Shown piece after piece: positions 452 through 52,708 of a DNA stretch of 52,708 bases (within the stretch, counting starts at the first letter, position 1; every line of letters starts with the position of its first letter). The DNA is from a virus. The stretch spans positions 1 through 52,708 of IMG/VR virus record IMGVR_UViG_3300035700_000486; one strand, given 5' to 3'. The notes under the pieces were generated by a model. The model ran no database searches. It was not told the origin of the DNA and worked only from the letters and a program-made list of their open reading frames with translations. A program made the translations under genes and the position numbers.

Positions 452-3400
452 TTAATCCGTTTGACGGTCATCTTCATCATCTTTCCATTTAAGAAATTCT
501 CTATATAACTCTTCCTTCTCTGAGCCAAAGAAATTGTTGTCATGTGGCGAATAATAATAGTTTTTATTTACTACAGTTGACCCCTCGCCAGAAGTACTTC
601 CTCCTGCATAATAATCATCAGACCCACTGTCAGAGTCTGATCCGGTAGGTACTTCATTATAGCCAAAGTCTAATCCAGCTTCTCTTAATTTCTGTTTGAC
701 ATTGTCAAGCAGTCCTTGCATATTCCGGAAATCTTCTTCTAAATTACCTGTAAAGGATATATCTGATTCTTCGAACCAGGTCTCAAACATTTCTTGATAG
801 ACTTTGGATTCCATGAAAGCATCTATTAATCCCTGTTTAGTATTTTCATAGATAGATTTACCCATTGATTTTGAAAAATCTCTAAAGGATCCCGAATCCA
901 GAGCAGAACTTAGAGCATTACTTAAGGCATTTTTTATTGAATCCAGTCTTTCTTTTAATTTTCGAGATTCATCGGAAACTAAACCCATTGTCTCCAATAA
1001 TTTGTTGATTTTCTCTTCACTTAATCCCGCAGCTTTAGCCTGTTCTCTAAATTGTTCAGCAATAAGATCATTAATGCTGGATATATTTTCCATGTTTTTA
1101 ACCATATTAATCATGTTACTAAATACTTTTTGTATATTACCGCCCTGAATAATCTCTTTAACAAACTGTAAGGGGTTATTCCCTTTATAATTAGCTAATT
1201 TATCAATTATAGTGCCAAATAATTCTTTAAACTGAGCATCAATTTTATCTATATTAATATCATAAAAAAGACTAGCTATATTTTCTTTCATGGTAGAAAA
1301 ATAAGAATTTAAACCGGATGCAAAACTCTGTAAAGCTGAATCACCAGAAGAAAATGCCTGAATAAATGAACTTCTAACATCCTGCATAACAGTAATTATT
1401 CTTTCTCCACCATCTACTATATTTTCTTTATATTTTTGAACCTGTTTATCTATTTCATTACTGTGTTCATTAATATTTTTACCTGCTGCTTTATACATCT
1501 CTTCGATTTTTTTGCGGTACTGGTCAACTTTTTCCTGAGCATCTAACCATTGAACTCCTGCCATATTTTCATATCGAGCTGCTTTGGCTAATTCTTTATA
1601 CGCCACTCTTAATTCTTCAACTGATTCTAAGTAATTTTCTAGCTTATTCCTGAAACTGTCAAAATTAGTTGACCATTTGCCAAGATCTCCGCTGCTGAAT
1701 AGATCACCACCTTCAACTGTAATCTCGGCTAATCTTTTTAAATCATTGCGGCTAATGCTCTGAGTATCATTATATACTTCCTGTAATTCATCTATTCCCA
1801 TATTCCCAATATTACCCGGATAATCATATCCCATTTTTCGCATAGCTGATAACGGGTTGAACCTTTGGGTATAAGTATCATCAAAAACTAGATCTTTTTC
1901 AATTGCCTTTACAGCAATTTTACCAAAATTGGGTTTAATAGTCCCAGTTAAAGAATTATACATTCCTTCAAGAACTTCCGAAGCATCTTTTATATTAGAT
2001 AGAGTAGGATTCTGAGCTACCATTTGAATGATATTCTTAGCTGTTTCAGCAGTGTTTTGTTTTATCTGTTTTATATTCTCGAGTTGCTGTCTATCCAAAT
2101 CTCTTTGCCGTTCCCATTCCTGCTCTTCTTTTTTATTTTTAGCTTCATTATAAGATTGAATAGCACTAACAGCACCCATGGCTGCATTAGCCATGCCAAA
2201 ACCAGCTGTAACTTTAGACATTAAGCCTGTAGCGTTCTGAAAGTTTTTATATTGATTATATCCCTGCTGGCCAGCTCCGATTAATCCACCAACTAGAGCA
2301 CCTTCTTCTGAATTTCCAGTTATATTTCCAAGATTAGTGAAAAAACTTGACATTTGATTAGTTAGATCTGAGATACTTGCTGTAAATTCGGTGGTTTGTT
2401 CCTCTTGACCATTTTCCAGACTTTCGAGATCTTTTTGTAATTGTTCTTGTAATTTTTCTTGTTGTATCCTAAGACTTTTTACTTGTTCTTTGTATTCTTT
2501 TTTCATGCTTTCTATTCCAGAAATTAAGCCCATTATATGATTAAAGTTTTCGGTATCATGAGCAACTTTAGATAAATAAGTTAGCACCTGATTATTTCCT
2601 AAGCCGGCTGCTTTTAAAGACCATCGATTCACCACACTGGGATCAACAGATTCTCCTACTCTTCCTCCCATTTTAAAACCAGGAACATCACCAGAATTAA
2701 TAGCTTCAAGTAATGGCAGGAATTTTTGTGTAGCTTTAGCATTGACTACAAATTCTCCGTTTGAAAGCATTGCTGGAATCGAATCAGAAGTTTCAGAACC
2801 AGGACCATTAATCATCCCACCCAGAGCTTTTTCAGTCCATCTACCTGTATACTTACCTTCTTCATTAACGTCTTTATATTTAGAGTAGTTATTTGGATTG
2901 ATATTATTTTGGTTACCGGAAGGATTGAATAGATCATAAAGCCATGAATCGGACCAGATTTCATTCCAGGCGTCTTTCATATCCTGCCAGAAGTCAGTCC
3001 AAAATTCTTTGGTAAATAATTCATTTACACTCTGTTTCATAGACTCCCATTTTTGATTCCATTCTTTCTCCATGTTCTCAAATCGTTGTTTCCAGTATTT
3101 CAGAGTGAAAGTCTGATTAATGTCCTTTTTTATCTCTGGCCATTTATTATCCCATTCTTTCTTCATATTTTGTATTTTTTTCTGCCAGTATTCTTTAGTA
3201 AATAATTTATCGGATTCTTCTATCCAATTTTTGAAATCCGGATTCAGTATACCTTCTTTCTTAATACTGTTAACCCATTCTTTCCAGTTATTCATAAATT
3301 CTATAAATTTCGGATTCCATATTCCTTCTTCTTTAATTTGTTTTAATCCAACTATAACTTTCTTTTTCCAGTCTTCATAATTTTTAATGTCATCATCTAA

Positions 3401-6031
3401 AGCTATCTGAATCATGGCTTCCAATGCTACGGCTCCAGCTACACCTGCGCCAACTTTTCCAGCTCCAGCAGCTAATAATTTGATTCCGCCTGCAGTTGCA
3501 CCAGCTAAACCAGCTATCTTTCCTGCTAATAATGTGGCTAACCTTGCTCCTGTAAAGGCTAGAGTCAATGTTCCTAAGCTAACAGTAAAATCTAGAGCGA
3601 ATTCTAAATTACTATCAGGCATTACCTGACTTAATTCTTTATTCTGTTTGTAGAGTTCTTTAACATTTGGAATCCAATTTTTATTCAGAGTATGACTTTG
3701 ACCTGGGGCATAATTACCTCCCAGGTATTCAATAAATTTTTTCTGCATAGAGTCAGATAAGGCTGATAGAGTCTGATCTGCTTCCAACTCATATTTTTGT
3801 TTAAATTGCTCCCAATAATGATTAACAGTAGTGGCGGAAGCACCAGCAAACCATTCTCTAGAATGTGGCTCTAGGCCTAACCCCTTCTCTAGTCCTTCAA
3901 AAAATTCTTGATTAGACTCTTTCGCAAATTTATAACCCTGATCTCTGAATCCTGTCATTCCATAAGGTACGGAGGCATTAGGTCCTCCTTCAGCTGTATA
4001 GATTGACCTTAATAATTCACCTATACCATTATTACCGGTGGCTTTTTCTATTTGTTCTTCAATAGAATTACTGCTGAGCAATCCATTAAGCCAGGACTTT
4101 AATGACCCTAATATTTTCATTCCACCTTTAAAAGAGTCAACTCCTACCTCAATTACTATATCAATCACTTCATCATAGGTTAAAGGTTTATCCTTACTTT
4201 TAAGGCCTAATTCATTACGTATCCAGGAGCTGAATTCATTATATAAATTACTTATGTTATCCCATAAGAATTCAATGAAATTAAGTAATATTTGAACTCC
4301 TTCATTGAGATGGATTTGATTATCTTTATTAAGATCGAGTTGAGGCTTAACCCAATTAATGAATTCATTGTATAGATCTTTGATTTTCTCCCATCCGAAA
4401 CTGCCATATTTCAATAACGGATTAACAGCTTCTTTTAATGAAATGTTACCATCTTGATTCATGTCCAGTTCTGTTATTATCCATTTTTCAAATTCGGAAT
4501 ATAAACTTTTAATATTACTCCAAGTAAATCCGGTAAATTTTAATAAAAGCTTTCCTATATCCTGAGCCTTTTCCATCCAGGTAGTTTCTTCCCACCAGGA
4601 CCGGAATTCACCCCATTCTTTTTGAATTCTGGTAACTACTCTCTCTGTTATGCTTCTTATATCCCAGAGATTAAGATACCAGGCAGCGCCTAATACTGAA
4701 ATACCAGCTGTAACAGCTCCGATAGGAGTAGCAAGAGACATAAGTGCTAATCCTACAGCGGAAATAGCAGCTACAACGCCTGTGAATCTTAACGCAAATG
4801 AAACTAATGATTTAATTGCCTCTTTATTATTTTTGACAAAGTCTTGAATAGCAATTGCCCAGGCCGCAATATCATCAAGCATACTATTAACTTCTACCTT
4901 GAAAGTTGATCCGATTTCTCTAACAGCATTTATTACGGTTTCTTTAGCTCTATTGAATCTGTAAGCAATGGTATTTGTGGCTTTTTCAAAAGCTTCCTGC
5001 ATAGACCCTGCGGAATTGCCCATATTTTCTACAGTTTCTTTTAATCCTTCAATATTAGTTGTCATAGAAATTATGGCTCTCATAGACCTCTGTTCAAAAC
5101 CAATACTTTCTAAAAAACCCTGAATTTCTTCATCAGTTAATCCCTGTATTGAGTTAGCCAAATCTTCCATGACTGGCACTAATCCACGGAATTTACCTAA
5201 TTCATCATAAACTTCAATACCAGCGGCAGCTAGTTTGTCTGATCTTTGAGCTAACTGCTCATAAGTTCTGGATAATGCTGTGGTGGCTTCTTCCGCATTC
5301 AATCCTGACTTTGTTACCAGAGCAAGTGCACCATACATACTTTCTAGAGAATCATTTAACCTTTTGGCTCCTGGGAGTAATTGGCCCTGACTTTTTGCTA
5401 ACTCTTCATAAGTAATTACACCCTGCTTAACAGTCTGAAATTGAAGGTTAAATACTTTAGTTAATTCAGTCATACTGAGATTAAAAGCATTTATAGTACT
5501 TAATCCAGCTCGAACAGCATTTTTAGTGGTGGTCATTCCAGCTTGGGCTGCTTTAGAAGCTTTCTGCAATACGGCTATAGAATTAGCTGACTCAACACCT
5601 GCCGAAACTACATCATATAATGCTCCGGAAAGCTGGGTTGCGCTTTCTCCAATTTGGTTTGATACCTGGATAACTTCATCACTTAACTCTTCAAATCTTT
5701 GTCTAGAAGTTTCAAGTAATGTATTAACATTGGCCATTGCTTTTTCAAACTTAGCAAATTTGTATATTGGAATGGCCGTAAAAGCGACAAGAGCTGCAAA
5801 TGCTCTTTTTGCTACATTCCAGAGAGTACGCATAGCCTGCCGCAATTTTACAAATGCGGCTTTCATTTTTTGAACTGCTGCTATAACTTTACGAGCAGCT
5901 GTGCTCACAGATCTCTGGAAACGGGCAAATTGTCTTTTCATTCTCTTAGTATTCCTGATCATATCGTTAATCTGATTTGAATACATATCTCTGGCTCTTA
6001 TTGCCCATTCTAACGCAACTTGTCGGTCCAT
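452..6031 (-). CDS. Tail tape measure protein with EF-hand-like repeats
   Basis: This 1859-residue protein sets tail length and is packed inside the tail tube. Residues 110-350 form a TP901-type tape measure core. Hydrophobic stretches lie at about 416-452 and 811-878. Residues 502-630 are three tandem 43-residue repeats, the first two with complete 12-residue EF-hand loops (D523-N525-D527-G528-I530-E534 and D566-N568-D570-I573-E577). Residues 675-790 start with an AEGG..PYG motif that may be a lysozyme-like fold. Residues 944-1036 are three Trp-rich repeats of 31 residues. Residues 1076-1098 carry the common GPGSETSDSIPAMLSNGEFV motif. The rest is helical, coiled-coil sequence. The gene follows the gpG/gpGT pair, the standard position. 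Family call is secure; the EF-hand and lysozyme readings are inference. Confidence 0.95.
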   Translation of the reverse strand: MDRQVALEWAIRARDMYSNQINDMIRNTKRMKRQFARFQRSVSTAARKVIAAVQKMKAAFVKLRQAMRTLWNVAKRAFAALVAFTAIPIYKFAKFEKAMANVNTLLETSRQRFEELSDEVIQVSNQIGESATQLSGALYDVVSAGVESANSIAVLQKASKAAQAGMTTTKNAVRAGLSTINAFNLSMTELTKVFNLQFQTVKQGVITYEELAKSQGQLLPGAKRLNDSLESMYGALALVTKSGLNAEEATTALSRTYEQLAQRSDKLAAAGIEVYDELGKFRGLVPVMEDLANSIQGLTDEEIQGFLESIGFEQRSMRAIISMTTNIEGLKETVENMGNSAGSMQEAFEKATNTIAYRFNRAKETVINAVREIGSTFKVEVNSMLDDIAAWAIAIQDFVKNNKEAIKSLVSFALRFTGVVAAISAVGLALMSLATPIGAVTAGISVLGAAWYLNLWDIRSITERVVTRIQKEWGEFRSWWEETTWMEKAQDIGKLLLKFTGFTWSNIKSLYSEFEKWIITELDMNQDGNISLKEAVNPLLKYGSFGWEKIKDLYNEFINWVKPQLDLNKDNQIHLNEGVQILLNFIEFLWDNISNLYNEFSSWIRNELGLKSKDKPLTYDEVIDIVIEVGVDSFKGGMKILGSLKSWLNGLLSSNSIEEQIEKATGNNGIGELLRSIYTAEGGPNASVPYGMTGFRDQGYKFAKESNQEFFEGLEKGLGLEPHSREWFAGASATTVNHYWEQFKQKYELEADQTLSALSDSMQKKFIEYLGGNYAPGQSHTLNKNWIPNVKELYKQNKELSQVMPDSNLEFALDFTVSLGTLTLAFTGARLATLLAGKIAGLAGATAGGIKLLAAGAGKVGAGVAGAVALEAMIQIALDDDIKNYEDWKKKVIVGLKQIKEEGIWNPKFIEFMNNWKEWVNSIKKEGILNPDFKNWIEESDKLFTKEYWQKKIQNMKKEWDNKWPEIKKDINQTFTLKYWKQRFENMEKEWNQKWESMKQSVNELFTKEFWTDFWQDMKDAWNEIWSDSWLYDLFNPSGNQNNINPNNYSKYKDVNEEGKYTGRWTEKALGGMINGPGSETSDSIPAMLSNGEFVVNAKATQKFLPLLEAINSGDVPGFKMGGRVGESVDPSVVNRWSLKAAGLGNNQVLTYLSKVAHDTENFNHIMGLISGIESMKKEYKEQVKSLRIQQEKLQEQLQKDLESLENGQEEQTTEFTASISDLTNQMSSFFTNLGNITGNSEEGALVGGLIGAGQQGYNQYKNFQNATGLMSKVTAGFGMANAAMGAVSAIQSYNEAKNKKEEQEWERQRDLDRQQLENIKQIKQNTAETAKNIIQMVAQNPTLSNIKDASEVLEGMYNSLTGTIKPNFGKIAVKAIEKDLVFDDTYTQRFNPLSAMRKMGYDYPGNIGNMGIDELQEVYNDTQSISRNDLKRLAEITVEGGDLFSSGDLGKWSTNFDSFRNKLENYLESVEELRVAYKELAKAARYENMAGVQWLDAQEKVDQYRKKIEEMYKAAGKNINEHSNEIDKQVQKYKENIVDGGERIITVMQDVRSSFIQAFSSGDSALQSFASGLNSYFSTMKENIASLFYDINIDKIDAQFKELFGTIIDKLANYKGNNPLQFVKEIIQGGNIQKVFSNMINMVKNMENISSINDLIAEQFREQAKAAGLSEEKINKLLETMGLVSDESRKLKERLDSIKNALSNALSSALDSGSFRDFSKSMGKSIYENTKQGLIDAFMESKVYQEMFETWFEESDISFTGNLEEDFRNMQGLLDNVKQKLREAGLDFGYNEVPTGSDSDSGSDDYYAGGSTSGEGSTVVNKNYYYSPHDNNFFGSEKEELYREFLKWKDDEDDRQTD
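2924..3202 (-). repeat. Three 31-codon Trp-rich tandem repeats in the tape measure gene
   Basis: Residues 944, 975 and 1006 each begin a unit of the form FT.(E/K)(Y/F)W....(Q/E)(N/D)M(K/E)(K/D).W...W. The 31-residue period is exact. Trp/Phe repeats with helical periodicity are common in tape measure proteins and are thought to set regular contacts along the tail tube. Confidence 0.7.
4142..4528 (-). repeat. Three 43-codon tandem repeats with EF-hand loops, inside the tape measure gene
   Basis: Residues 502-544, 545-587 and 588-630 of the tape measure protein align with the pattern F.W..I..LY.EF..W...EL, then a Ca-binding-type loop, then a hydrophobic helix. Repeats 1 and 2 keep all acidic ligand positions. 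Repeat 3 has lost them. The period of exactly 43 residues is read directly from the sequence. Confidence 0.8.
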
Positions 6032-6078: not shown

Positions 6079-6363
6079 TTAGGTTTTTTTATTATCTTCT
6101 TCTTTCTGTTTTCTCTTGATTGCCTTATTCACATAATTAATTATATCCATAATACTTTCTATAATGTGAGCAGGTTGTTCATAGAATCCTCCTGAGTATG
6201 GCAAAAATTCTAGTTCCCAGTATCCTCCCATATTAGTTCTACACATCATCTGAACATCTTTAACCTCTTCAAAATATTTTTGAATTCTATCACTGGGTTT
6301 CTGTCCTTTAATATAAGCTTTACATGCTAATTCCAGCAATTGTTCTTCGGTTCTTTCATTTAG
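6079..6363 (-). CDS. Tail assembly chaperone gpT extension (made by -1 frameshift from gpG)
   Basis: This frame has no ATG and no ribosome binding site of its own; its first methionine-type codon is a TTG at 6339. It is open, in the -1 frame, from the slippery heptamer of the preceding gpG gene. Reading on from CTA at 6363 gives L-N-E-R-T-E-E-Q before that TTG. The joined gpGT product would be about 222 residues. In lambda and most siphoviruses the gpG and gpGT proteins between tail tube and tape measure genes load the tape measure for tube assembly. The frameshift geometry is exact, so a gpGT role is strongly supported. Confidence 0.85.
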   Translation of the reverse strand, partial: LNERTEEQLLELACKAYIKGQKPSDRIQKYFEEVKDVQMMCRTNMGGYWELEFLPYSGGFYEQPAHIIESIMDIINYVNKAIKRKQKEEDNKKT

Positions 6364-6746
6364 TTTTTTTCTTCCTCATCCTCTTCATCATTTTGAGCTA
6401 TATCATTGATTTCCTTGAACTCTTCTACAAATTTTTCCACGTACAACATTAAGTCTTCTTCATTTATTATATTAGAACCACTAATTTCTTTATCGTGACT
6501 CCAATCAGTAAGCATCTTCCTGAGAATAAATAGATCTTGATCTTCTTTTATATCATATTTCCCCAGTTTCATGATTACATCATTTTTTCCTTTATATCTG
6601 ATCGAGTCAGGTCGCTGTTTGTTCTGTATTTGTTTTTTTAATCCGAAACTTGGTCGTTTTTTTCCTTTTACAAATCGACCTTCTTCATCTTCAACGACTA
6701 TGAACATATCATCTATATCAACTTTAAGCTTGTCTTTGTCACTCAT
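6360..6746 (-). CDS. Tail assembly chaperone gpG-like protein
   Basis: This 128-residue protein has a very acidic C-terminus (DEEDEEEKN). It sits between the tail tube and tape measure genes, the gpG position. An AAGGAG site precedes the ATG. The stop codon follows a slippery heptamer that leads into the gpT frame. No sequence motif identifies it; the call rests on position, size and the frameshift. A hairpin terminator lies just upstream, which would lower its expression relative to the tail tube gene. Confidence 0.82.
   Translation of the reverse strand: MSDKDKLKVDIDDMFIVVEDEEGRFVKGKKRPSFGLKKQIQNKQRPDSIRYKGKNDVIMKLGKYDIKEDQDLFILRKMLTDWSHDKEISGSNIINEEDLMLYVEKFVEEFKEINDIAQNDEEDEEEKN
6363..6369 (-). 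other. Programmed -1 frameshift slippery site A AAA AAC
   Basis: On the minus strand the last gpG codons read gaA-AAA-AAC-TAA. This places the canonical X XXY YYZ heptamer A AAA AAC in the correct phase, immediately before the zero-frame stop. After a -1 slip, translation enters the 6079-6363 frame without a stop. A site between tail tube and tape measure genes is the classic location for this event. Confidence 0.88.
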
Positions 6747-6833: not shown

Positions 6834-7817
6834 TTAATATTGAGTATCCTGATCATCTATAATTTCTACAGCAACATTATATCCAGCAGTACTATCCCAA
6901 AAAGCCCCACCTTCAATATCTACAGTAACCTTACCAGGACCACCAACATTAGCTTGTACAGAGTTTAATTTAATTTTTGGATAACTGAATTTTATATATG
7001 GATCTGAATCTGAATTAGCAGAACCAATACCGATATCAATAGGAATTTCAGCCCCTTCTTCCAGGTCATCTTTCATAATATCGTATTCGCTTGCACTAAA
7101 TTGTGCTGTTATAGAAATAGTATGTTCGCTATCTTGAGCATCAAGAGTTCTCAATACTTTGCTTAGGCCATAATCTTCAGAATCCAGATTATTATTATGT
7201 GTGAAAGAAAATTCATCAAGTATACCTTTGATATCCAGATCTTCTGTGCCAACATCATAAGTAATAACATCAGAATCCCATGCAAACAACCTTTCTCCAG
7301 TGTTATCATTAATAGTTTCGGTGGGACTGGTAGTTCCTTTTGAATAATTAATGGCAACTATGTCCAGGGTGTAAGTTAATATCGCTTGACTAGTTACACT
7401 AAGATCTAATTGATTTATTTTCGCGTCAGTATACAGTTCCCAAAAAGTCTCACTATCAAAATATTTAAGCAATGTTAACCAGGTAGTTAATTTAGAATCT
7501 GGAGTAAATATATGTTTATATGGTCCACCTGTCCCCAGATCTTCTGGAGATGAATCTTCAGCACCTATCGAATTTTTGATTATTGTTGGTATCATATCCT
7601 TTTCAACTTCACCATCAATACCACCAGCTCCATAATCCCCAGAAACGTATTGATTATCAGAAAATCTATTCCCGGTGAGGGCTTCACTTTGAACATTATT
7701 TATTTGCTTTTCTAAAGAATTTGAAGTGGCAAGTATTTTTGTTAATGTATCCGAAGGGCTATCTTTAGCTGACTGTTCAGCCAAAGCTGTAACAAGATTC
7801 CTTCCTTCAAAACCCAT
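6834..7817 (-). CDS. Major tail tube protein
   Basis: The protein has 327 residues and starts MGFEGRNLV. The ATG at 7817 is preceded by AAGGAGG at ideal spacing, so the open frame upstream of it (to 7844) is not used. It is acidic and beta-rich in character, with a C-terminal segment (KIKLNSVQANVGGPGKVTVDIEG) typical of phage tail tube proteins. It lies between the neck genes and the gpG/gpGT pair, the standard tail tube position. The terminator that follows fits a highly expressed virion protein. Confidence 0.82.
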   Translation of the reverse strand: MGFEGRNLVTALAEQSAKDSPSDTLTKILATSNSLEKQINNVQSEALTGNRFSDNQYVSGDYGAGGIDGEVEKDMIPTIIKNSIGAEDSSPEDLGTGGPYKHIFTPDSKLTTWLTLLKYFDSETFWELYTDAKINQLDLSVTSQAILTYTLDIVAINYSKGTTSPTETINDNTGERLFAWDSDVITYDVGTEDLDIKGILDEFSFTHNNNLDSEDYGLSKVLRTLDAQDSEHTISITAQFSASEYDIMKDDLEEGAEIPIDIGIGSANSDSDPYIKFSYPKIKLNSVQANVGGPGKVTVDIEGGAFWDSTAGYNVAVEIIDDQDTQY

Positions 7818-7859
7818 TTCAATTCCTCCTTCCAAATATGTCAATCATTTTCATTCTAA

Positions 7860-17535: not shown

Positions 17536-18112
17536 TAGCTTTTAAATATTGAGATATGTCCGGATCAATAGGTCCTTCTCTCTGCTCCACTTTATGTTTT
17601 ACGTCGATTAATTTAGCTTTTCTAGTTTGAACCCTGGTGATTGCTTCTTCAATATCCTGTATCTGACCTAAGGTGGCTCTGTTCTTCTCTTCAGTCATAT
17701 CAACTGGACCTTCCGGCCCAGTTCCAACTTTATCATTTATTTCAACAGTGGTGAATTTATTTTTTCTTAGTTCCTGAATTCTTAACATCATTCTGCGGAT
17801 ACGAATATCAGTTAGTCTTATTTCATTGTCAAGTTGGGAAGCTACATCGGTTCTGATCTCATGGTACAATTCTTTTTCCTCTTCATCTAAAGTGTCCAGC
17901 CAAATAGCTTCATGTTCATGAGTTTTTACTGCATTTTTATTCTTTTTCATTTTTTCGGACGGTGCACCTGTGGATTTTCCTCCATGAAATTTACATCTTC
18001 CAGTTCCTGGGTGATCGGTGCCCCAACCTGCTTTTAATTTACAAGGTTCTCCAGTACTCTTGGCTTTCGCTCCACATATATTGCTATGAGGTTCGTTTTT
18101 AGATTCAGACAC
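17480..18112 (-). CDS. terS: Terminase small subunit-like protein with Cys/His N-terminal motif
   Basis: The protein has about 210 residues. A GTG at 18112 (MSESKNEPHS) has an AAGGTGGTG site and is preferred to the GTG codons just upstream. Residues 12-50 hold CGAKAKSTGEPCKLKAGWG...GRCKFHGGKS, the HGG-type Cys/His motif found in many phage terminase small subunits and DNA-binding proteins. The rest is helical with a region (RATLGQIQDIEEAITRVQTRK) suited to oligomer formation. It overlaps the large subunit gene by about 56 bases. Confidence 0.78.
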   Translation of the reverse strand: MSESKNEPHSNICGAKAKSTGEPCKLKAGWGTDHPGTGRCKFHGGKSTGAPSEKMKKNKNAVKTHEHEAIWLDTLDEEEKELYHEIRTDVASQLDNEIRLTDIRIRRMMLRIQELRKNKFTTVEINDKVGTGPEGPVDMTEEKNRATLGQIQDIEEAITRVQTRKAKLIDVKHKVEQREGPIDPDISQYLKAIGVASGQVWNDEDEQEEE

Positions 18113-42787: not shown

Positions 42788-43200
42788 GTATACATTTAAA
42801 TAAAAAATTATATAAAAGATGTAATTGCTTCAGCTCCCAATATATCCTTAATTTTTCTCAGATATTTTGGACTCGGATTCTTTCTTTTTCCAGTTTCTAA
42901 TTTAGCAATATATATTCTGCTACACCCTATCTTCTCTGCTAATTCACTTTGCGTAATATCCTTTTCAATACGAGCTCTTTTTAAAGAGTTTGATGTTTTT
43001 GAGATACTTTCCATTCTGAAAATCACCTCCACTTTTTCATCTTGCATTTATAATTATAGTTTACTGTGAGTATAAATGCAAACATATTGTATACCTATAG
43101 TCACCTTTTGTATTGGTTTAGCTCTAAATTTCTCCAGTTTACTATAAATTTCTTATAAATAATACTGTCAGTAAACAGGAACATGTATACTAATAGTGAA
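42788..43200. promoter_or_regulatory. Lysogeny control region with two repeated operator-like motifs
   Basis: Around the Cro-like gene and in the divergent gap 43048-43283 two motifs recur. Motif 1 is GTTTACT(G/A): 43059-43066, 43137-43144 and, inverted, 43169-43176. Motif 2 is TGTATAC: 43088-43094 and 43184-43190, both followed by ATAGT(C/G)A, and inverted at 42788-42794. A further TGTATAC copy lies at 44277-44283 ahead of the lipoprotein gene. These are good candidates for sites of the XRE repressor and the Cro-like protein. AT-rich -10-like sequences lie among them but exact promoters are not certain. Confidence 0.55.
42808..43014 (-). CDS. Cro-like XRE repressor
   Basis: The protein has 68 residues from the ATG at 43014 (MESISKTSNSLKRARI), with GGAGGTG nine bases upstream. 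The helix-turn-helix is ITQSELAEKIGCSRIYIAKLETGKRKNPSPKYLRKI, a standard lambda-repressor-like fold. It is divergent from the XRE repressor at 43284, across repeated operators. This is the arrangement of cro and cI. Confidence 0.82.
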   Translation of the reverse strand: MESISKTSNSLKRARIEKDITQSELAEKIGCSRIYIAKLETGKRKNPSPKYLRKIKDILGAEAITSFI

Positions 43201-45174: not shown

Positions 45175-46677
45175 ATGCCAGCAAATCCTAAAAAAGGCGT
45201 TTCATACATCAGAGTATCAAAAAAACGTGATAATATGCTAACAGTAGATACCCAGAAAGATAAAATGGGAAAATTCTGCGAACTGCATGATATTAAACTA
45301 ATAGATACTTACCAGGATATTGATTTTTCCGGACGTACCGGCAACAGACCAGCCTTTCAAAAATTGCTTTCTGACATAGAAAATGAAATCATCAATCCAA
45401 ATTATTTTTTAGTATATAAAGTGGACAGGTTTTCAAGAACTGCTAAAGAATTCTATAAATTCATGACTAAGCTGGAAGATAATAATGTGGATTTAATCTC
45501 TATTACCCAGCATTTTGACACTTCTACTCCTATTGGAAGAGCTATGATGGGTATATTAATCCAGTTTGCTCAATTTGAATCAGATATGACCGGCCAGAGG
45601 ATTAAGGATAATCTACAAAACAATGCTGAAAAAGGAAGATGGAATGGTGGGAATGTGCCTTACGGATATATTTGGGATGAGGAAGAAAAATTATTAAAAC
45701 CGGATCCAGAAGAATCAGAAATAGTAAAAAGAATATTTAAAATGTATACCAGGGGGCACGGAAGCAGTACTATAATTCAATATTTAGAAGAAAAGAGTAT
45801 AGTTTCCCCTTCCGGGAATAACAAATGGGACCGTACTACTATATCCTATCTAATAAGAAATCCATTGTATCTAGGTAAAATTAAGTATGATAATGAAGTA
45901 TATAACGGACAGCATGAAGCTATTATTGGGGAGGACGCCTTTAAACAAGCTAATAAAATACTTGATAATTATGCAGAATCAAACACTACTGAATCAACTT
46001 ATTTACTTAGTGGATTAACTGAATGTGGAGCATGTGGTCAATATGGATTTAATACTTTTTTTGGCTCAGGAAAATATCGTAGTAGAAGATATGTCTGCAG
46101 CCGTAGAGGAAGAAACTCCAAAAAAGAATGTTCAATGGCTGCTTATGATGCAGAATCCCTGGAAGAAAAAGTTTGTGATGAAATATTTTCTCTATCAAAT
46201 AATGAAAGTTTTTTTGAAAAACTAAAAAATAAATTAAACTCAACAGATAGAAAGAAAATAAATAATCTTGAACAGAAGGAAAAATATTTGAAAAAGAAAA
46301 TAAATAAATTGGATAAAACTTTATCTAAAATGTTTGCAGATCATTATGAAAAAGAAATCATTCCTGAAAATCAATTTATTAAGTTCTCTAAAAAATATGA
46401 AGATCAAAAAGAAAAAATAGTGGCCAGTTTAGAAAATATCAGAACAGCAATAGAAGATCAAAATTTAAGAGAAGAAAACATTAATATAATAAAAGAATCG
46501 ATTTCAACTCTTAAAGAAAGCTGGGATTATTTAAGCTGTCAGGAAAAAAATCAAGCATTGAAGAGAGTAGTTGATAAAGTTATCCTATATAAAGATAAAA
46601 TTGAAATTGATCTTTTTTATACAAAAATAAAAATCAACGATATCAGTAAAAAAAGAAAAGTACGCTACCTTGCTTGA
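45175..46677 (+). CDS. Large serine recombinase (phage integrase)
   Basis: The protein has 500 residues. The resolvase domain covers 8-150, with catalytic serine S15 in YIRVS, then YKVDRFSRT and the long helix GRAMMGILIQFAQFESDMTGQRI. The recombinase domain spans 165-270 (NVPYGYIWDEE...TISYLIRNPLYLGKIKY). The zinc ribbon CGACGQYGF...YVCSRR...KECS covers about 283-325. A coiled coil fills 355-450. These are the features of phage serine integrases. attP usually lies next to such genes. GGAGG precedes the ATG. Confidence 0.95.
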   Translation: MPANPKKGVSYIRVSKKRDNMLTVDTQKDKMGKFCELHDIKLIDTYQDIDFSGRTGNRPAFQKLLSDIENEIINPNYFLVYKVDRFSRTAKEFYKFMTKLEDNNVDLISITQHFDTSTPIGRAMMGILIQFAQFESDMTGQRIKDNLQNNAEKGRWNGGNVPYGYIWDEEEKLLKPDPEESEIVKRIFKMYTRGHGSSTIIQYLEEKSIVSPSGNNKWDRTTISYLIRNPLYLGKIKYDNEVYNGQHEAIIGEDAFKQANKILDNYAESNTTESTYLLSGLTECGACGQYGFNTFFGSGKYRSRRYVCSRRGRNSKKECSMAAYDAESLEEKVCDEIFSLSNNESFFEKLKNKLNSTDRKKINNLEQKEKYLKKKINKLDKTLSKMFADHYEKEIIPENQFIKFSKKYEDQKEKIVASLENIRTAIEDQNLREENINIIKESISTLKESWDYLSCQEKNQALKRVVDKVILYKDKIEIDLFYTKIKINDISKKRKVRYLA

Positions 46678-46795: not shown

Positions 46796-46872
46796 CTGGC
46801 TATAGCGCAGCTTGGTAGCGCGCTTGCTTCGGGAGCAAGAGGTCCTCGGTTCAAATCCGAGTAGCCAGACCA
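46796..46872 (+). tRNA. tRNA-Pro (anticodon CGG)
   Basis: All arms are complete. The acceptor CTGGCTA/TAGCCAG is followed by A and an encoded CCA. U8-A9 are present. The D-stem is GCGC/GCGC around AGCTTGGTA. The anticodon stem CTTGC/GCAAG has loop TTCGGGA (anticodon 46830-46832). T-arm is CTCGG-TTCAAAT-CCGAG. It is 77 nt long with CCA and a T-run follows. It decodes CCG. Whether it belongs to the phage or marks a host site cannot be decided here. Confidence 0.95.
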
Positions 46873-47084: not shown

Positions 47085-47771
47085 CTATTCGACTACCTGT
47101 TTAACGGGTTTACTTAAAAAATCTATAACTTTTAATATTTTTTCTGGGCTCTGTTCAATATAAATCGGCTGTAAATTTGTTCTCTGAACTTCATCTATCC
47201 ATTCATATAATATATCTGTTCTTTTGGAATGCCAGACTACATAATTACATTTTAGATTGTTCTGCCTATACTCCCTCTCATAATCTTTCCATTTGTTTTG
47301 AATAAATTCTTTGTTTTCCCCTCCTGATAAATCTATCTCTAGACAAAAAGAGACATCATAATTTATATAAGCATCTGGCCTAATATTTCCTAACTCTTTT
47401 TCTAACTCAAACCCGTTTATCTCAATAATATCACGGCATTTTAGTTCAATTATTAATTGATTGACTTTGAGTCTGTGTGGCGCTTTAAGCTGTGAAAATC
47501 GAGGTCTGAGAGCTTCCTGACCTGTATCTTGCTTAAATAATTTCTTACCTTTGGCTGACACTCTAAATATTGGAGTTTGTTTACGGCTGTTTCTATGCGA
47601 TAGATAATCACGATCTATATAATTTTTATCCAGCAAAGACTCCCTAATCCTTCTTTGAGCCATATCATAAGATGGAAATTCCAACTGCTGTATCTGAGAG
47701 TGAGAAAGCCAACCATGATAACCTAAATGGTATACGACCCTTCTATCTCTAGGCCTGAACTCAGAAGGCAT
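47085..47771 (-). CDS. Replication-relaxation family protein
   Basis: The protein has 228 residues. An N-terminal winged helix (RDRRVVYHLGYHGWLSHSQIQQLEFPSYDMAQRRIRESLLDKNYI) is followed by FRVSAKGKKLF and a C-terminal alpha/beta part (RPDAYINYDVSFCLEIDLSG...) resembling the restriction-endonuclease-like fold of this family. Family members are linked to plasmid replication and DNA relaxation in Bacillus plasmids. It follows the FtsK-like gene by four bases, the usual pairing of these families on mobile elements. Confidence 0.75.
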   Translation of the reverse strand: MPSEFRPRDRRVVYHLGYHGWLSHSQIQQLEFPSYDMAQRRIRESLLDKNYIDRDYLSHRNSRKQTPIFRVSAKGKKLFKQDTGQEALRPRFSQLKAPHRLKVNQLIIELKCRDIIEINGFELEKELGNIRPDAYINYDVSFCLEIDLSGGENKEFIQNKWKDYEREYRQNNLKCNYVVWHSKRTDILYEWIDEVQRTNLQPIYIEQSPEKILKVIDFLSKPVKQVVE

Positions 47772-47774
47772 TTA

Positions 47775-49070
47775 TTATAACTTCACTCCTTTCCTTTTAT
47801 TTTTAGCTTTCACTTTTGATTCAGACTTCTTTCTTGCTTCCTCCAGATCCACTACATTACTTTCTTTTTCTTCCTCAGACTTAAACTGCTTATATCTTTC
47901 CTGTAATAACTTTTTAGCTCTACCCGGTGATAAATACGGTGCCTGAAATTTTATGTTTTTATTTAGTTTAAATATTCCGCGTCCAGGTATATCTTCCAGA
48001 TCCGCTGCCAGATTATTACCTAATACTATACGAGAATTAACTCCATCGGTAACCCTATGACAAATTTTAACCTGAGTATTTGCTTTGATCTGGCCGTCAA
48101 TCACCTGAGCATCCGGTCTCTGGGTACAAACTATAAAAAATATCCCTGCAGCTCTTCCCATCCGGAATAATTTCCCCAGCTTTGACTGTATAGCTTTACC
48201 CGTCTTTTTTTCATCTCCCACTAACATATTAGGAGACAATTCAGCATATTCATCAAAAACTACTACAATATAAGGAAAACTATTATCTGGCAACTGGTTA
48301 ACATTTGTCACTCGTTCTTCTTCCATAATTTCATACCTGTATTCCATTTGTTCTTCCACTTCAATTAAGTTATCCAGGACCTGATCATGATCTGTAGCAT
48401 AACCATTTTCATTTACATAAGGTGAATCTTTAAATATTGCCAGCTCCACTTTTTTAAGGTCATTGAGATAAAATTTTACATAATCCGGAGAATAATTCAT
48501 AATTAAAGAAGTTATCATACTTCTAATAGTGACAGATTTACCTGATCCGGAATAACCTGCTATAAGAAAATGGAGTTGCTTTTCTGCTATATCAAAAGTG
48601 ATTAATTCTTCTTTGGTGTAACCTATAGGGATCCCTAACTTCATTTTTTTAAGTTTTTTTAATATTTTCCTTGAATACGGATACTTGTTTTCAAATTTTT
48701 CTGTAATAATTTTCATGGTTAATTTTCTACCTTCAGAATTAAACTGGACTTCCGATTCCAGAGCTGTTTCTATTTCTTCTTTTCTTTTAATAAAATTTTT
48801 GGGTTTTTTGCCGTAAGGGATAGTATATTCAGCCTGGTACCCATAATCAGTTTTTTGATGATTTCTTAACCTGGGATATTCTTTAATATCTTTATTAATC
48901 TTATTATAGAGTTTAGTGTGTTCAAATACCTTGTTGAGCTTTTTCTCTGTTTCTGAACGATCATCTTCTTTTTTGAAGGCCTTGGGCAATAAACAAATAG
49001 CACTACCCAACGATCCAAAGCCTAAAATTTGCCACCATTGAGGCAACCACTGTAAAACTTCTAGATTCAT
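47775..49070 (-). CDS. FtsK/SpoIIIE (TcpA)-like DNA translocase
   Basis: The protein has 431 residues. One membrane segment lies at about 7-28 (QWLPQWWQILGFGSLGSAICLL). Walker A is AGYSGSGKS (171-179), Walker B IVVVFDEYAEL (D273, E274), and CTQRPDAQVI near 315 is typical of FtsK. It is shorter than chromosomal FtsK and lacks the gamma domain, like the coupling-protein ATPases of conjugative plasmids (TcpA, ConQ). It is probably a membrane pump for DNA. Its ATG overlaps the upstream stop as ATGA. Confidence 0.88.
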   Translation of the reverse strand: MNLEVLQWLPQWWQILGFGSLGSAICLLPKAFKKEDDRSETEKKLNKVFEHTKLYNKINKDIKEYPRLRNHQKTDYGYQAEYTIPYGKKPKNFIKRKEEIETALESEVQFNSEGRKLTMKIITEKFENKYPYSRKILKKLKKMKLGIPIGYTKEELITFDIAEKQLHFLIAGYSGSGKSVTIRSMITSLIMNYSPDYVKFYLNDLKKVELAIFKDSPYVNENGYATDHDQVLDNLIEVEEQMEYRYEIMEEERVTNVNQLPDNSFPYIVVVFDEYAELSPNMLVGDEKKTGKAIQSKLGKLFRMGRAAGIFFIVCTQRPDAQVIDGQIKANTQVKICHRVTDGVNSRIVLGNNLAADLEDIPGRGIFKLNKNIKFQAPYLSPGRAKKLLQERYKQFKSEEEKESNVVDLEEARKKSESKVKAKNKRKGVKL

Positions 49071-51725: not shown

Positions 51726-51754
51726 ATTATAACATGCATGCATGTACATGTCAA
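51726..51754 (-). promoter_or_regulatory. Consensus sigma-A promoter with a 14-bp palindrome in the spacer
   Basis: On the minus strand TTGACA (51749-51754), a 17-base spacer and TATAAT (51726-51731) form a perfect promoter for the 51.7-49.7 kb operon. The spacer holds ACATGCATGCATGT (51732-51745), a perfect palindrome that touches the -10 box. A repressor bound there would block RNA polymerase; the ribbon-helix-helix protein in the same operon is a candidate. The stretch 51755-51937 upstream holds no gene I can support. Confidence 0.8.
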
Positions 51755-51937: not shown

Positions 51938-52192
51938 TTATAACTCACGCTCAAATACTTTTTCCATTTCATTTGATATACTATCATAACCACCCCAATT
52001 TCTTATATTTTCTAAATCTTTTTCAACTTCTTCAAAACTTTCCTGGTCCTGGCCAGTTATTTCTATTTCAATCAACTTGATCATACCTTCTACAGAAATA
52101 TACTGGCCATTAATTTTATACCTACCTATATTAAATTCTATATTTTTACTTTTAAGTTTATCAATTAATTTTTTAAATAATTCTATTTTAAC
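51938..52192 (-). CDS. Frame-shifted extension of the holin-like gene
   Basis: This frame encodes 84 residues (VKIELFKKLIDKLKSKNIEF... MEKVFEREL) and has no usable start near its front; the first ATG, at 52084, is deep inside. It is open in the -1 frame exactly from the slippery heptamer in the holin-like gene. The joined product would be about 172 residues. The sequence has normal protein character, so it is likely translated, either by -1 frameshifting or from an unseen start. Function unknown. Confidence 0.6.
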   Translation of the reverse strand, partial: VKIELFKKLIDKLKSKNIEFNIGRYKINGQYISVEGMIKLIEIEITGQDQESFEEVEKDLENIRNWGGYDSISNEMEKVFEREL

Positions 52193-52455
52193 TTTTTTAC
52201 TTTTTTATCTTCCAATATATTTTCAACTTCTTTGGTATCATCTGATACAGAGTGTATTTTCATAATTAATTTTTCAATGTACTCTGGTACTTCCAATTCT
52301 GTTTCTTCCAAAATTTCTACAAAAGCATCAATTAAGATGTTAACGATCTTAAAATAAACAGTTTTTTTGTAAAAATTAGTCAATATAAAAACAATAACAG
52401 CTCCAATTACACTTGTTACCGCAGGATTTGAAAGCAAATTAATTATTTCTTCCAT
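52183..52455 (-). CDS. Holin-like membrane protein
   Basis: The protein has 90 residues. One N-terminal membrane helix (PAVTSVIGAVIVFILTNFY) is followed by an amphipathic helical and charged C-terminus, the outline of LL-H-type phage holins. It lies 21 bases downstream of the M15 endolysin gene on the same strand. AAAGGAGAT precedes it. Holins open the membrane to release the endolysin. A -1 slippery site near its end may give a longer form. Confidence 0.65.
   Translation of the reverse strand: MEEIINLLSNPAVTSVIGAVIVFILTNFYKKTVYFKIVNILIDAFVEILEETELEVPEYIEKLIMKIHSVSDDTKEVENILEDKKVKKLK
52192..52198 (-). other. Putative -1 frameshift slippery site A AAA AAG in the holin-like gene
   Basis: The final codons of the holin-like gene read gtA-AAA-AAG-TTA-AAA-TAG. 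A AAA AAG is the most efficient bacterial slippery heptamer (as in dnaX) and is in the right phase. After a -1 slip the reading continues for 84 codons to 51938. Confidence 0.6.
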
Positions 52456-52475: not shown

Positions 52476-52708
52476 TTATTTTCTTCCACCCCAGGTGGCA
52501 AAATTACCATCCCTAACATCCAGATGAATAAAAGTGTTATATAATCCAATCCCATTAAATCCTATCTTTCTGGCCAGATTCCCAATAGTTTCAATATCCA
52601 ATTTTTGATTATGCAAACTAATATCAGCTGCTTTTCCTAATTTGTGTTGACTATGTTTAGCACCACCGACTTGCTTATTCCTTTCAGGACACCTATAACC
52701 AGAATTAA
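52476..52708 (-). CDS. M15-family peptidase endolysin, N-terminus outside window
   Basis: Only the last 77 residues are inside the window. NSGYRCPERNKQVGGAKHSQHKLGKAADIS contains the zinc ligands (H in SQH and D in AADI) of the peptidase M15A fold, and GIGLYNTFIHLDVR supplies the second His of the family. These enzymes cut peptidoglycan peptides and serve as phage endolysins. The holin-like gene follows immediately. The gene starts beyond the right edge. Confidence 0.88.
   Translation of the reverse strand, partial: NSGYRCPERNKQVGGAKHSQHKLGKAADISLHNQKLDIETIGNLARKIGFNGIGLYNTFIHLDVRDGNFATWGGRK

Follow-up and report, generated by a model that had tools for sequence, protein, structure and literature searches.

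Programmed -1 frameshifting is well documented in tailed phages for the tail chaperones, both in lambda-like phages and in many others. With regard to the slippery heptamers themselves, A_AAA_AAG ranks in the top three by efficiency in E. coli; the best heptamers of this class reach about 0.3% there if no stimulator is present, and no more than about 3.7% in the most favorable context (PMC4066793). For lysis genes, dual starts are described for the two holin genes of SPP1 (PMC6316719). In the case of the MS2 lysis gene, work of 1982 proposed frameshifting, and work of 1987 pointed to termination at the overlapping gene (both as cited in PMC5009743). A limited literature search among open papers returned no report of a programmed frameshift in a holin gene. 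The preceding sequence-only reading of the locus studied here had considered a two-form lysis protein of this kind to be new.

The locus is part of the IMG/VR record IMGVR_UViG_3300035700_000486, which was analyzed as a whole (52,708 bases, 33% G+C) and is referred to as the window in the following. It holds the gene set of a tailed phage, i.e., terminase, head genes, tail tube, tape measure, recombination genes and a serine integrase. The record's end cuts an M15-type endolysin gene such that its C-terminal part is left (52476-52706, minus strand; Peptidase_M15_3 with E 5.6e-15, phrog_894 endolysin with E 1.6e-18). A genome scan with the endolysin alignment, done with regard to the host, gave distant matches only, and Rfam gave no family of note. 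Elsewhere in the window, a Replication-relaxation family protein (47085-49070, minus strand) adjoins an FtsK/SpoIIIE-like ATPase, and beside this pair we find the serine integrase (45175-46677) and a tRNA-Pro (46796-46872). This arrangement resembles a plasmid or integrative-element module within a phage genome.

Directly after the endolysin gene, the minus strand encodes a membrane protein of 90 aa (52183-52455) with an ATG start and an SD-like AAAGGAG upstream of it. Its hydropathy profile shows one hydrophobic segment at about residues 4-30 and is followed by a lysine-rich C-terminal end. As is the case for phage holins, which are small membrane proteins with 1-3 spans, it is encoded beside an endolysin. 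Searches of Pfam, PHROGs and NCBIfam gave no significant match, i.e., no holin family. The earlier label "holin-like" therefore stands with regard to gene position and the single predicted membrane helix, while homology does not add to it, and we use the term in this sense. An assignment as tail chaperone G/GT was considered for this gene as well and does not fit its place after the endolysin, i.e., not between tail tube and tape measure.

The -1 frame of the membrane gene (51938-52208, minus strand) is open from 52208 to a TAA that ends at 51938 and overlaps the gene by about 25 nt. This extension runs about 81 codons past the membrane gene's stop, or 84 codons when counted after the slippery heptamer discussed below, such that the predicted fusion product has about 172 aa. 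The chance of an 84-codon open frame is about 5e-4 to 7e-4. The first ATG, GTG or TTG of the frame is the ATG at 52084, i.e., there is no standard start for about 40 codons. Furthermore, this ATG has no usable SD, given a duplex energy of -0.7 kcal/mol vs. a median of -9.4 kcal/mol for the genes of this phage. Both the open frame down to 51938 and the missing start codon and ribosome binding site near its front, as put forward in the sequence-only reading, are hence confirmed.

The same reading had considered the translation of the extension to look like real protein. This is borne out by the codon usage, which is the phage's own. Starting from the ATA at 52186, a value of 0.354 bits per codon relative to the off-frame background is obtained for the 82 codons. 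This is inside the range spanned by the genes of the genome (mean: 0.279), and none of the off-frame windows of the same length reached it. The 34 codons before the ATG at 52084 score 0.287 bits per codon, which is reached by 0.2% of the off-frame windows of 34 codons. That is, the coding signal spans the part without standard start. This bears on the alternative that expression is limited to the 48-aa ORF starting at ATG 52084, using a promoter-like site at 52164-52135, or that the frame is a decaying gene without start. Here, a 10/12 promoter-like match is indeed placed just upstream of the ATG, but the number of such matches (11) is near the expected one (7.3 +/- 2.9 in shuffles), and neither the full coding-like usage of the preceding 34 codons nor the absence of an SD fits an ORF beginning at 52084. 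We thus regard this alternative as quite improbable. Predicting the structure of the extension from its single sequence gave no usable model (pLDDT 49.8), and a weak match to DUF3895 (E 0.0055), like other weak Pfam/PHROG matches, did not pass the cut-off and is not trusted.

The proposed site of the -1 shift is the heptamer A AAA AAG at 52192-52198 (minus strand), which is, as claimed beforehand, in phase with the membrane gene and close to its end; two sense codons (TTA AAA) are left between the heptamer and the TAG stop. By itself, the heptamer is unremarkable. In-phase A AAA AAG is observed at 17 sites among 15,140 codons. Given the peptide EDKKVKKLK and the phage's codon usage, its chance is 5.5%, while any A AAA AAN is expected with 25%; the latter value, which reflects the lysine-rich tail, counts against frameshifting. 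What is rare is to find such a heptamer in phase together with a coding -1 frame that has no start.

Both parts of this combination are features of frameshift sites and found here, i.e., a slippery X XXY YYZ in the zero frame (A AAA AAG) and an open coding -1 frame without own start. A stimulator, i.e., an upstream SD and/or a downstream structure, was not found at 52198-52192. A weak SD-like element, GGAAG, precedes the heptamer by about 10 nt (approximately 52208-52214), and the 20 nt upstream form an anti-SD duplex of -4.4 kcal/mol, compared to the median of -9.4 kcal/mol for the gene SDs of this phage and -7.4 kcal/mol for its tail-chaperone site. A check for a downstream stimulator in 52100-52190 had been suggested; folding revealed no RNA structure downstream of the heptamer (z of about -0.3 to +1.1). 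Folding downstream of the phage's own tail-chaperone heptamer gave no structure either, such that a stimulator is not a strictly defining feature.

This tail-chaperone site serves as an internal control. The G-like gene (6360-6746, minus strand) has an in-phase A AAA AAC two codons before its stop, beyond which the -1 frame continues for about 92 codons and lacks a start at the junction (whole pair 6080-6746, minus strand). It is located between the tail tube gene (6834-7844, Phage_tube_2) and the tape measure gene (452-6031, PhageMin_Tail). Since neither half of the pair matches a tail-chaperone family, the putative G/GT identity rests on position and anatomy, which are those of the textbook case.

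We surveyed the window for genes with a -1 extension of at least 40 codons (n=18) and checked each for a start of the extension as well as for a slippery heptamer in the overlap. For 15/18 genes, a standard start is found no more than about 16 nt from the stop; a further gene (42808-43047) has its start 50 nt on (+50) with a strong SD. In the overlaps of these 16 genes, no slippery heptamer occurs. This leaves 2/18, i.e., the tail chaperone and the membrane gene, whose extensions lack a convincing start; in each of the two, an A AAA AAN is in phase. Their next starts are a TTG at +20 and an ATG at +98, respectively, neither with a convincing SD. To observe the heptamer in 2/2 start-less vs. 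0/16 started extensions has a probability of about 1 in 153 by chance.

Within about 0.5 Mb of other phage contigs, four more start-less -1 frames with heptamer are present, i.e., five including the 52183-52455 case. Three of the four were read out (L043, L015, L062). Each follows a tail-tube-like gene, which is the tail-chaperone position, and one of them also precedes a tape-measure-like gene, where these labels rely on position and sequence instead of a family search. Two of the three are near-identical to the fourth (L063).

The contigs are also informative about the possibility that a single gene, encoding a natural membrane protein of about 172 aa, was split by a one-base change in the length of an A-run, either as an assembly error or as a recent real mutation. 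The fused protein would read naturally, and A-runs, i.e., the likeliest sites for one-base indels, abound in the overlap (two with six A, one with four); furthermore, no second copy of the overlap region was found. However, we saw no clear error-like start-less coding frame in the 0.5 Mb, and no further gene in the window appears disrupted. In addition, a second assembly of the phage (L003), which aligns over about 12.6 kb outside the membrane-gene region, shows one mismatch and no one-base indel there. At 17711-17740, inside the gene for the terminase small subunit, about 30 bases are absent from it, and this difference keeps the frame. Given these observations, a split gene is a somewhat unlikely explanation.

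With regard to homologues of the membrane protein or the extension, no convincing match was obtained in any collection searched. Viral contigs were scanned with either protein, with pieces or with the adjoining gene, and bacterial genomes with the fusion; roughly 400 genomes around a Clostridium-titled and a related genome were taken in as well. We also applied tblastn to phage and plasmid records and blastn to phage records, and compared the phage records behind the loci. Phages with endolysins that are 65-73% identical have unrelated membrane proteins and second genes. Still, those with the closest endolysins show the same layout, i.e., the endolysin is followed by a membrane protein and then by a small soluble gene that overlaps in -1 and has a normal ATGA-type start.

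Since this layout with ordinary initiation exists among the endolysin relatives, we keep as a rival that the extension encodes a small protein of its own, which would arise without fusion by re-initiation at a non-standard start. The candidate is an ATA (52184-52186, minus strand) that overlaps the TAG stop as ATAG, and thus in a geometry like the common ATGA overlap. ATA starts are, however, very rare, and the one at 52186 has no SD (upstream duplex of -1.0 kcal/mol). The genome is AT-rich and uses ATA and ATT codons frequently, such that finding an ATA at the junction carries no weight. Apart from the tail chaperone, the remaining 16 extensions of the survey all begin at standard starts. Moreover, homology of the proteins of the closest-endolysin phages to those encoded here is not detectable, which includes the products of their second genes when compared to the extension. 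The MS2 lysis gene provides a warning precedent, with an early attribution to a frameshift that was later replaced by activation through termination (studies cited in PMC5009743). Taken together, we consider re-initiation at the ATAG to be unlikely.

A related arrangement is seen in the endolysin relatives L029-L034 (about 4370-4410), where a holin-like gene also has an in-phase A AAA AAG shortly before its stop. The second gene overlaps in -1, but has a normal ATG with AGGAG upstream. In a sister group (such as L019-L028), G AAA AAG is found in place of A AAA AAG.

For the layout of membrane gene and extension, programmed -1 frameshifting is our leading explanation, which we hold with about even confidence. 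It is strengthened by the tail chaperone of the same phage, which shares the anatomy while no other gene in the window does. That is, the shift into the extension that the sequence-only reading had proposed is backed by the sequence facts and this parallel, while the lack of downstream structure and the weakness of the SD-like element speak against it. Above all, no relative of either protein was found in any collection searched, whereas a conserved heptamer with both frames is what usually identifies such sites. A second gene without start or a small indel in an A-run would produce the same anatomy.

Under programmed frameshifting, the lysis operon would yield the small single-span membrane protein as its regular product. 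Near the end of the gene, a small share of ribosomes would slip by one base backwards at A AAA AAG, thereby entering the start-less -1 frame, such that a minor long form of about 172 aa would be produced that carries a C-terminal domain of 81-84 residues. For the slippage we infer a level roughly that of an unaided heptamer, i.e., about 0.3%, up to a few per cent. The long form may tune or partner the membrane protein in lysis. We thus propose, more tentatively than the shift itself, a lysis membrane protein in two forms, where the C-terminal domain of the long form could regulate or couple lysis.

The promoter scan gave a perfect sigma-70-type promoter (TTGACA, 17 nt, TATAAT) at 51726-51754 (minus strand), i.e., 3' of the extension and upstream of the next small-gene cluster. 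The gene after it probably belongs to another transcription unit, such that the coding part of the lysis operon would end with the extension. The promoter overlaps a TGCATGCATG-type repeat.

If the frameshift is confirmed, it would be another way to set the ratio between two forms of a lysis protein, beside dual starts. Apart from this locus, the genome-internal test (coding -1 frame without start, heptamer in phase) selected tail chaperones, and it could be applied across phage genomes in search of further cases.

Compared to known systems, the locus shares with the tail chaperone G/GT a small gene with an in-phase X XXY YYZ near its end and a start-less -1 extension of similar size and, as for the copy at 6360-6746, no downstream structure. 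In contrast to G/GT, the gene encodes a membrane protein and follows the endolysin. With E. coli dnaX it has in common the A AAA AAG heptamer and an SD-like element about 10 nt upstream. However, dnaX uses a strong SD and a downstream stem-loop, whereas the element found here is weak and no structure is present; furthermore, the frameshift product of dnaX is the shorter one, while it would be the longer one here. The MS2 lysis gene is likewise an out-of-frame gene of a lysis region reached by ribosomes from the preceding gene, but by re-initiation at a standard start, of which there is none at the junction studied here. Finally, the dual-product holin genes (lambda S105/S107, SPP1 24.1/24.1* and 26/26*) also provide two forms from one lysis gene. 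There, the two forms result from two starts at the 5' end, while the second form proposed here would differ by a C-terminal extension gained via frameshifting.
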